From an uncultured Chloroflexota bacterium (GTDB lineage Bacteria; Chloroflexota; Anaerolineae; Aggregatilineales; Phototrophicaceae): DNA of 43,007 nucleotides. The notes under the pieces are model-generated. The model saw nothing but the letters and a program-made list of their open reading frames with translations, made no database searches and was not told the DNA's origin. Below, piece after piece: positions 2,617-6,415 of the stretch (positions are counted from its first letter, which is position 1; every line of letters begins with the position of its first letter). A program made the translations under genes and the position numbers. The stretch lies in contig CAIPFY010000388.1 of the NCBI GenBank assembly GCA_903864435.1, positions 1-43,007 on the forward strand, written 5' to 3'.

Positions 2617-3528
2617 TTAGCCGAACAATCCGCGCCGTGCGGCCTGCCCGTGTGAAAGCGTGGTCAGCCCGCCCATGTACGGATTGTTGAAGGGGCGCAG
2701 TTCGTCCATGAGCAGTTGAATATCGCGCAAGCGGGTGCGGCGGTGGGCAATTTCGATGAACCCGCCCCACTCGCGGAACAGCGGTTTGGCCTGTTCTTCG
2801 CTCATGGTGTCCCAGCGCCACTGGGTCGGGTAATAGAAATAGTACAGGCTGTACGAGGCGGCGGTGATGGCTGAAATCCCCCGCGACTCGACATTCCACA
2901 GGTCAACATCCACATGGGCGGCGGCTTCCGCCATCAGGGTGAGCGCCCCGGCGGACAGAATTTGCCGCCACAGGCTGCCGCCATCCCCGCCTTCCACAGC
3001 GCGGGGCAAGTAACCCTCCGGGCGCACTTCATCGCGGATCGTTTGCCGAAAAACGGTTTCGCCCATCCCGAAGCGCGTATCGTCTTGCAAGACGATGCCG
3101 GTCAGCAGGTTCACCAGCCCCAGCCAGAGGCTTTCCACAAACCCCGTTCCTGCGGGCGGCAGATTGAGCAATGCGACCCGTTCCGAGAATGTGTGCAGCC
3201 AGCTTTCCGCATGGGGGGCGAACGCCGGATGGTCGCGCACCAGTTCGGCGGCCTGTGCCAGTGCTACCGCTTCCATGAGCGCCGTCAGGTAGTCCCCGCC
3301 GCCCGATAGTCCGGTGCCGTTGAGCAGAGTCGCGGCGGCAGTCTCGCCCGCCGCATCCTGAAACCGCCAGCGCAGCCCGTCCGCTACTGCTGCCGCCAGC
3401 GGTTCGGCGGGATGCAGGTTGTTCAGCGCCGCCCATGCGCCAGCCAGCGGTTCGCGGGACTGATTCTTACGGGCAGATTGAACCTGTTCAGGGGTGAAAT
3501 ATAAACCAAAGTGCGAGTAACGGGGCAT
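2617..3528 (-). CDS. Alginate-lyase-family (alpha-toroid) protein, probably cytoplasmic
   Basis: This 303-residue protein opens with 'FTPEQVQSAR' and a 'PLAGAWAAL' helix, and its centre carries 'IRDEVRPEGYLPRA' followed by a helical run ending in 'VDVDLW'. This order resembles the alginate lyase family (PF05426-like, alpha6/alpha-toroid), which cleaves uronate polysaccharides by beta-elimination. The Arg-Thr that usually follows the 'DG..P' turn is replaced here by 'RAVEGGDGG', so activity is uncertain. No signal peptide is visible, which is odd for a polysaccharide lyase. The next gene is a glycosyltransferase 40 bases downstream on the same strand. A TATAAT at 3565-3570 (minus strand) sits 37 bases upstream of the start. 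Another (alpha/alpha) toroid family is possible. Confidence 0.6.
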   Translation of the reverse strand: MPRYSHFGLYFTPEQVQSARKNQSREPLAGAWAALNNLHPAEPLAAAVADGLRWRFQDAAGETAAATLLNGTGLSGGGDYLTALMEAVALAQAAELVRDHPAFAPHAESWLHTFSERVALLNLPPAGTGFVESLWLGLVNLLTGIVLQDDTRFGMGETVFRQTIRDEVRPEGYLPRAVEGGDGGSLWRQILSAGALTLMAEAAAHVDVDLWNVESRGISAITAASYSLYYFYYPTQWRWDTMSEEQAKPLFREWGGFIEIAHRRTRLRDIQLLMDELRPFNNPYMGGLTTLSHGQAARRGLFG

Positions 3529-4436: not shown

Positions 4437-4513
4437 GTGCTACACGCGCCTTCCGTCCGGCTGCAATCATCCTGTTTTTCCCTATAGTTTAGCTTCCGCA
4501 TTCGGAGGTTCTG

Positions 4514-6415
4514 ATGGCGACTCAGCCGATTTCTCATGCTCTGGTTCTGCCCGACAGCGATTTCATGACATGGTACAAATCCGCCGAAGCCTATACCAAA
4601 GCGTTTGAACGGGTTGCCATCATCCGGTCGCCTTCGGGCAACGATCTGAACCGTTTTCGGAATGTGACCGCCGTACAAGCTCCCGGCGTATGGCAAAACA
4701 ACGAAGCCGTGACCCATATCCGCCGTGTGTACCCGATGGTGGTGCGCGTGGATTTGATCCGCGCCAGCACGCCGACGGAACTGGGGCGCATTTTGCAGGA
4801 ACGGGTGCGCCTGAACGATCGCTACGGCGATACGATCACACCCGGCAATTTGTATGATCGCTTCACACTGGATTGGCCTTCGGATGCACGTCCGGCGCGG
4901 TTGACGCGGGCGTTCAACGATACCAGCAGCGGACGGCGCAACGAGGGCGTGGATGTTCACGCGCCGCAGGGGACTCCGATCCGTGCTGCGGTGGTCGGAA
5001 CGGTGGTGACGATCATCCGTCAGCCCACGTCACTCGGTTACGGGCAGTATATACAGGTGTCGTGCGTCCTTGCCGGACAGACTTATCTGGTGACTTATGC
5101 TCAACTTCAGAATATTCGCGTGAGCATGGGGCAGAAGGTGCAGGCGGGGGATGTGATGGCCGAGTCCGCGTGGGACTCGATCAAACTGGTGGTACAGCAG
5201 CCGGGATCGGGCTTGACCGGGTATATTTTGCCGGATGTGGTTGACCCGACCATGATGATCTACTGGCAGGCGTTGCGGTTGCGGCCTTCGGATACGGGAC
5301 TGCGCATCCGCGAGAAACCGGGGACGGATTTCCGCGTGCTAGGGCAGCTTCGTCTGTATGACCGTTCCGAACCGCTAGAACCACACGGGCGCACCTTGCT
5401 GAAGGTCGGGCAGAAGAATCAGTGGATTAAACTGCGTTCGCCCGCTGGTGTGGAAGGCTATTCGGCGGCGGAATTTTTGCTGGCGGACGAAACCAGCGGC
5501 ATACAGGCGTTGAATATGTCCGGTCTGAACCTCGACATCCTGCACCGCTTGGGCAAGCCGGACGCGGCGCGAATGAAGGGGGCGGGCTGGGTGCGCTTCC
5601 CGTATAACGTGTCTATGGATCGCGGTTCGACGGATTTGGACGCGGCCTACAACCTTTACGCGCCTTACATCGAACGGTATGCCGCCGCCGGACTCAAGGT
5701 GATTCTCGTCCTGACGCATCAGACTTTCGGGGAAGGACAGGGCTACGTTTGGCCGAATATGAACACCGGCTCGTGGCGCGAACTGACCACCCGTTATGTG
5801 GATTTCGCCCGCCGGATTGCAGCGCGATTTGCGGGGCGCAATCTGGTGACGGCTTATCAAATCTGGAATGAGCAGGATACCGCGCCCAGTGTGGCACATG
5901 CGGCGGTTCCGCTGCCATTTGCGGATTACGCCTACATGCTGACCGAGGCCATCAAAGCGATCCGCAGCGCCGATAGCGCAGTGAGCATCATCACGGGCGG
6001 GCATGTGGGCGGCCCCGGCAACGGCGCGACTTACGCCCGCAACACGCTGGCGGCCATGCCTTCTAACGTGCGCCCGGATGGAATTGCCTGTCATTCGTAT
6101 GGGCGCGGGCCAGTGGGGAATAAGTTCAGCCCGTTCGGGAGCATTGACGAGGATGTGGATGCTTACGGGGCGCTGCTGCCCGGTGCGCCGGTGTGGATTA
6201 CCGAGTGGGGCGTGCTGGATGTGCCGAACGCCAGCGCGACGGAAGTGGCGGATTATGCGACAGGGTTCATCAGTCGCTTGAAAGGAATCTACAGCGGCAA
6301 GGTGGCGACCTGCTGCTGGTACGGTTGGGCGGACAGTATGCACAACGGTTACGGTCTGGTGAACGTGAGCGACCAGCCCAAGCAACCGTTGTACGATCGC
6401 TTCCTACGGGCGTAG
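4514..6415 (+). CDS. Fusion: LytM-like pseudo-domain, SH3-like domain, clan GH-A glycoside hydrolase
   Basis: This 633-residue protein has four parts. Residues 1-105 are unrecognised. Residues 128-245 follow a LytM/peptidase M23 fold ('EGVDVHAPQGTPIRAAVVGTV', 'GYGQYIQV', 'VSMGQKVQAGDVMA'), but the zinc ligands are mostly lost: Asn where HxxxD has His, Gln in the 'YAHL' strand, and no HLHFE motif. Residues 253-325 look like a bacterial SH3 domain ('LRIREKPGTDFRVLGQL'). Residues 330-633 form a TIM barrel with 'YQIWNEQD' (acid/base E453) and 'VWITEWG' (nucleophile E564), the strand-4 and strand-7 glutamates of clan GH-A. No signal peptide is present. It probably binds and cuts a glycan, with the LytM part acting as a binding module; the substrate is unknown. 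GGAGG 5 bases upstream supports the ATG. Confidence 0.75.
   Translation: MATQPISHALVLPDSDFMTWYKSAEAYTKAFERVAIIRSPSGNDLNRFRNVTAVQAPGVWQNNEAVTHIRRVYPMVVRVDLIRASTPTELGRILQERVRLNDRYGDTITPGNLYDRFTLDWPSDARPARLTRAFNDTSSGRRNEGVDVHAPQGTPIRAAVVGTVVTIIRQPTSLGYGQYIQVSCVLAGQTYLVTYAQLQNIRVSMGQKVQAGDVMAESAWDSIKLVVQQPGSGLTGYILPDVVDPTMMIYWQALRLRPSDTGLRIREKPGTDFRVLGQLRLYDRSEPLEPHGRTLLKVGQKNQWIKLRSPAGVEGYSAAEFLLADETSGIQALNMSGLNLDILHRLGKPDAARMKGAGWVRFPYNVSMDRGSTDLDAAYNLYAPYIERYAAAGLKVILVLTHQTFGEGQGYVWPNMNTGSWRELTTRYVDFARRIAARFAGRNLVTAYQIWNEQDTAPSVAHAAVPLPFADYAYMLTEAIKAIRSADSAVSIITGGHVGGPGNGATYARNTLAAMPSNVRPDGIACHSYGRGPVGNKFSPFGSIDEDVDAYGALLPGAPVWITEWGVLDVPNASATEVADYATGFISRLKGIYSGKVATCCWYGWADSMHNGYGLVNVSDQPKQPLYDRFLRA

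Follow-up and report, generated by a model that had tools for sequence, protein, structure and literature searches.

The stretch of DNA analysed here (the window) covers 43,007 nucleotides of a contig from an uncultured Chloroflexota bacterium of the class Anaerolineae. On its forward strand, an open reading frame at positions 4514-6415 encodes a protein of 633 amino acids. The start of the gene is well placed, since the ATG is preceded by a GGAGGT sequence and a TAG in the same frame at 4490-4492 limits any upstream extension to at most seven codons. The upstream gene (P0002, 3609-4436, + strand, 275 aa) matches no Pfam family and is conserved within the order, being present in 49 of the 61 genomes sampled. 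We rejected it as an operon partner because it is not adjacent to homologues of the 4514-6415 gene in other genomes. At 2617-3528 on the reverse strand, an alginate-lyase-like protein (PF05426, 33.7 bits) adjoins a family 4 type glycosyltransferase. A role in anti-phage defence was also set aside, as no PADLOC match was obtained.

The features of the gene are listed in Table 1. The Pfam search gave matches above the curated cut-offs to Peptidase_M23 (PF01551, residues 142-218, 50.2 bits against a cut-off of 28.7), SH3_3 (residues 262-322, 29.5 against 27), Cellulase (PF00150, residues 355-581, 42.6 against 23.5) and Glyco_hydro_cc (PF11790, residues 500-611, 24.7 against 21), which bears out the original prediction of a LytM fold fused to an SH3-like domain and a clan GH-A glycosidase. 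Residues 1-115, here called the N-domain, had zero Pfam matches. The PDB matches found by sequence search were LytM-fold proteins including DipM, and a search for a known secreted enzyme family matching the whole protein returned none. An AlphaFold2 model built with 32 homologues showed a mean pLDDT of 88.3 and a pTM of 0.63, the latter indicating that the relative placement of the domains is uncertain. Full-length homologues were present in 42 of the 61 sampled genomes of the source organism's taxonomic family and in none of the other sampled families of the phylum. The prediction that no such glycosidase fusion is known agrees with the open-access literature, where we found no paper describing a LytM/SH3/GH-A fusion, but the fusion is a family-wide trait and not a peculiarity of a single gene. 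Based on these results, the 633-aa protein represents a conserved, undescribed multidomain family that combines a dead LytM domain with an apparently live glycosidase, and the mechanism that we infer for it is set out below.

Table 1. Positions of the gene at 4514-6415 and of its sequence features in the window.
Feature	Position	Strand	Basis
Whole gene, 633 aa, without signal peptide	4514..6415	+	ORF, hydropathy, full-length homologues
GGAGGT ribosome-binding-like site 5' of ATG	4505..4510	+	Sequence reading; gap of about 5 nt
N-domain, Rossmann-like, residues 1-115	4514..4858	+	Class-wide with LytM, Amidase_2, GH-A domains
M23/LytM fold, dead site, residues 124-250 (approximate)	4883..5263	+	Pfam and homologue alignment
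Former Hx3D motif, N143 (former metal-ligand His) to D147 (metal-ligand Asp, kept)	4940..4954	+	Alignment
Q197, catalytic His position (His260 of LytM)	5102..5104	+	Alignment
Former HxH motif S222-I223-K224, preceding loop shortened	5177..5185	+	Alignment
SH3_3 domain, bacterial, residues 255-325	5276..5488	+	Pfam
Clan GH-A (beta/alpha)8 barrel, residues 330-633	5501..6412	+	Pfam, AlphaFold2 model, Foldseek, VIA-align
E453, predicted acid/base, after strand 4, in WNEQD	5870..5872	+	Model and homologues
E564, predicted nucleophile, end of strand 7, in ITEWG	6203..6205	+	Model and homologues

In canonical M23 peptidases the zinc ligands are His, Asp and His, and the remaining two His residues are catalytic (PMC9662197). 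When we aligned the 633-aa protein with LytM domains from outside the taxonomic family, the H, D, H, H, H site positions of the intact relatives corresponded to N143, D147, Q197, S222 and K224. All four His residues, both ligand and both catalytic, are replaced, and the ligand Asp147 alone is left. The claim that all three zinc-ligand histidines have been lost was therefore correct for both ligand His residues, with the catalytic pair gone as well, but the third canonical ligand is an Asp and is kept. Both the Hx3D and the HxH motifs are broken in a domain that still scores as an M23 fold, in line with the predicted inactive LytM fold. This state is shared by the family: among 35 full-length homologues, none retains three or more of the five site residues, none carries His at position 222 and none has an intact HxH, while His143 is kept in 10, Asp147 in 27, and Lys or Arg occupies position 224 in 31. 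By comparison, 14 of the 15 out-of-family LytM domains contain all five residues, and the other one (L137) lacks two. In short paralogues the LytM domain has shrunk further and Hx3D is also gone. Judged from these alignments, the metal site of the LytM domain is dead.

The dN/dS values of the dead domain in ten close pairs were 0.05-0.20, near those of the other domains in most pairs, with synonymous sites close to saturation in the more distant of them. Residues G145, G162, G177 and Q228 are invariant in the 35 full-length homologues. On this evidence from substitutions, the dead LytM domain is under purifying selection and not in decay. The same N-domain-LytM(-SH3) head is found with its zinc site intact in relatives outside the taxonomic family, which makes one loss, within the source organism's taxonomic family, the most likely history. 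In an unrooted LytM tree, a branch with support of 100/98 separates the 13 intact domains included from the other sequences, so that a single loss is the simplest reading and not a proof. A protein of the same order but a different family (L089) combines the N-domain, an intact LytM domain and SH3 with a different GH-A type barrel; the novelty is thus the loss of the site on a pre-existing architecture. A contig titled Bacteroidetes (L062) carries a full-length homologue with 69% identity and is therefore probably misassigned.

The AlphaFold2 model places eight barrel strands at residues 336-602. N452-E453 and E564 are invariant in 35 of 35 full-length homologues, the Asn preceding the first Glu as in clan GH-A, and the two Glu residues lie at strands 4 and 7; the prediction that both catalytic glutamates are kept thus held for the whole set. 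The best Foldseek match of the barrel was PslG (E 8.9e-12), and the best VIA-align match was a GH39 enzyme (Z 25.3, rmsd 3.1 over 275 residues), with many GH1 enzymes within 1-2 Z units of it. The GH39 profile PF01229 was not listed for the 633-aa protein and gave weak matches in two relatives (L172 and L177). The assignment of the barrel to clan GH-A is safe; within the clan, GH39 is a candidate family. Predicted from the Glu pair and the fold, the barrel is apparently a retaining beta-glycosidase.

The first 105 residues had been described as unrecognised, and this description did not stand, as they belong to a Rossmann-like module that is widespread in Anaerolineae. A profile built from an 18-sequence alignment detected the N-domain in 76 of 396 Anaerolineae genomes. 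It precedes an intact LytM domain and a barrel (L083-L088, L127-L131) or a barrel alone (L090, L144), is located C-terminal to barrels (L132-L136) or to a PGRP amidase (L142), and occurs in tandem (L128, L143). When modelled alone, it adopted a Rossmann-like fold with a mean pLDDT of 85.5. The search for its structural relatives gave none that was convincing, and its profile matched only ribosomal proteins in the PDB (E of at least 0.15). We considered and rejected its identity with CWB2 or with the wall-binding domain of the clostridial phage endolysins CD27L and CTP1L: the VIA-align values (Z 6.4-6.8, rmsd 2.5-2.9, about 80 residues) were in the chance range for Rossmann-like folds, and profile-profile comparison was unsupportive.

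Since the predicted absence of a signal peptide bears on the location of the enzyme, we examined the N-termini by hydropathy, which differs from a trained signal-peptide predictor. The peak 15-residue value within the first 60 residues of the 633-aa protein was 0.52, and with the start bounded as described above, the prediction was upheld. The source genome has eight other M23 loci, seven of which peak at 1.95-2.56, that is, they have a hydrophobic N-terminal stretch; the eighth (L007) peaks at 0.87, a value that is uninformative because the locus edge cuts the gene. Hydrophobic N-termini are absent from the full-length homologues, whose highest 15-residue peak is 1.61, and the proteins related through the N-domain or the SH3-barrel are almost all leaderless by the same measure. 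A genome of the same genus encodes a protein (L179:884-2728, - strand) consisting of TIR, one membrane helix, SH3 and a GH-A barrel 42% identical to that of the 633-aa protein. By the usual topology rule, its SH3-barrel part would be outside the membrane.

The full-length homologues are chromosomal and family-wide, and they have rpoB, epimerase genes and other ordinary genes as neighbours. Many loci have a Ser/Thr kinase that contains PD40 propeller repeats and is divergent from the family member (L039, L041, L042, L044, L052, L053, L054, L059, L061, L062, L064, L069, L073, L074, L078, L094 and L097), and for the zinc-intact form in another family a kinase gene immediately precedes it on the same strand at four of six loci (gaps of 4, 4, 27 and 144 nt). 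Given about 41 kinase matches over the cut-off in the 5.4 Mb source genome, roughly one per 130 kb, adjacency by chance would be rare; the kinase loci share ancestry and thus are not independent. No kinase is near the 4514-6415 gene in the window. The source genome's kinase adjoins a short paralogue instead (L097:1151-2558, - strand). It appears to be broken into two frames that overlap, and the next gene encodes a GntR-like regulator. Elsewhere, at L192:661-8000 and L093:217-10112, the genes of a contractile injection baseplate cluster are succeeded by one for an SH3/LysM protein and one for a GH46-like-SH3(x7)-barrel protein 1825 aa long.

The explanation that we prefer, and to which we give an even chance, is that the pseudo-LytM domain, without catalysis of its own, works in cis as a binding or activating module for a retaining beta-glycosidase that targets a glycan of the envelope or matrix, with a link to Ser/Thr-kinase signalling. 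The GH-A barrel would cut a beta-glycosidic bond in such a glycan, and the N-domain, pseudo-LytM and SH3 would form a non-catalytic head that grips the wall or a partner and may control the barrel. The LytM part would have started out within this head as an active zinc peptidase, its site having been lost once within the family. The Lys or Arg at position 224, formerly a metal-ligand His, is opposite the kept Asp and could replace the charge of the metal, possibly through a salt bridge. The kinase, with an outer beta-propeller sensor, may be coupled to the expression or activity of the leaderless glycosidase. Counting against this explanation, there is no export signal, yet the expected substrates are extracellular; in addition, the kinase is not next to the gene in the window, and the kinase loci are kin by descent. 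The likeness to SH3 domains and to PslG does not fix the ligand of the 633-aa protein. A broader proposal, which we regard as rather unlikely, is that Anaerolineae have their own class of leaderless envelope hydrolases, in which the N-domain is combined with LytM, amidase, SH3 and GH-A parts and which would leave the cell by an unknown export route or by lysis controlled through Ser/Thr kinases; the peptidase of one branch would have become a switch for the glycosidase in the same chain.

A cytosolic enzyme, whose barrel would act on soluble or imported oligosaccharides and whose former wall domains would serve only as a scaffold for oligomers or for metabolite binding, is possible though clearly less probable than the preferred explanation. 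The absence of a leader or membrane helix in all full-length homologues, and in nearly all N-domain or SH3-barrel proteins, speaks for it, whereas the companion domains are of wall-binding and wall-cutting kinds (LytM, SH3_3, PGRP amidase and GH46) and the TIR protein described above would place the same SH3-barrel outside the membrane. Cargo or a lysin of a contractile injection system (eCIS) would also account for the missing leader, and in one genome (G038) a GH46-like-SH3(x7)-barrel relative is encoded just after a cluster of CIS_tube, hub, spike, PAAR, baseplate J and Tail_P2_I genes, next to which a gene carries the same SH3 together with LysM. This origin is nevertheless improbable, because at least nine genomes with a full-length homologue, including six of the genus g17, gave no tube protein match, tube and full-length genes are adjacent in no sampled genome, and no genes of this kind of cluster are near the gene in the window.

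It is still less probable that the LytM domain is a functionless, decaying remnant. Its site is lost and its short-paralogue counterparts have eroded further, as such decay would produce, but the low dN/dS values and the invariant Gly and Gln residues argue against it. A phage or prophage endolysin, finally, is largely refuted and very improbable. The leaderless modular build of LytM, SH3 and glycosidase is typical of lysins, and the LytM part matches lysis and tail families in PHROGs. These PHROGs matches, however, span the LytM fold only, no match was found in 50,697 phage records or in 2.9 million viral contigs, and the gene is chromosomal throughout the family with the ordinary neighbours mentioned above.

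Degenerate LytM folds elsewhere act as protein hubs or activators (PMC9662197; DipM, PMC10336132), in keeping with the activator and binding roles that the original prediction named for pseudo-LytM domains. EnvC, NlpD, ActS and DipM resemble the 633-aa protein in having a LytM fold without a working site, the fold being conserved for binding, and DipM, which works as an activator, likewise keeps a single one of the three metal ligands (PMC10336132). These proteins differ in being periplasmic or envelope-located and in activating separate enzymes in trans, with a coiled coil or LysM, whereas the 633-aa protein has no leader, carries SH3 instead and includes the glycosidase in the same chain. 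The proteins of other Anaerolineae families (L083-L089, L127-L131) share a homologous N-domain and LytM in the same order, are leaderless and in some cases adjoin Ser/Thr kinases, but their zinc site is intact and their GH-A kind barrel is mostly unaligned by the profile of the 633-aa family. PslG and the GH39 endo-beta-glucosidase (5bx9, 5jvk), the best structural matches, share the GH-A barrel and the retaining-type Glu pair; they show about 17% identity and lack LytM, SH3 and the N-domain, and the likeness is structural and does not imply GH39 membership.

M23 enzymes that carry a wall-binding SH3b, such as lysostaphin, or a further catalytic domain are modular wall enzymes with a LytM fold followed by SH3, as here, but their M23 domain is active and the protein is secreted. 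M23 proteins with a second catalytic domain account for less than 1% of the total, and the partners named in the M23 review are Rpf-like, amidase, M56 and NlpC/P60 domains, the GH-A barrel being absent (PMC9662197). That dozens of related proteins are leaderless raises the question of how, or whether, Anaerolineae export wall enzymes. The dead LytM domains known so far exert their control over wall enzymes in trans, whereas the one described here is fixed beside a conserved glycosidase in one chain, and since intact-site relatives exist, the change of a peptidase into a regulator or binder is directly testable.
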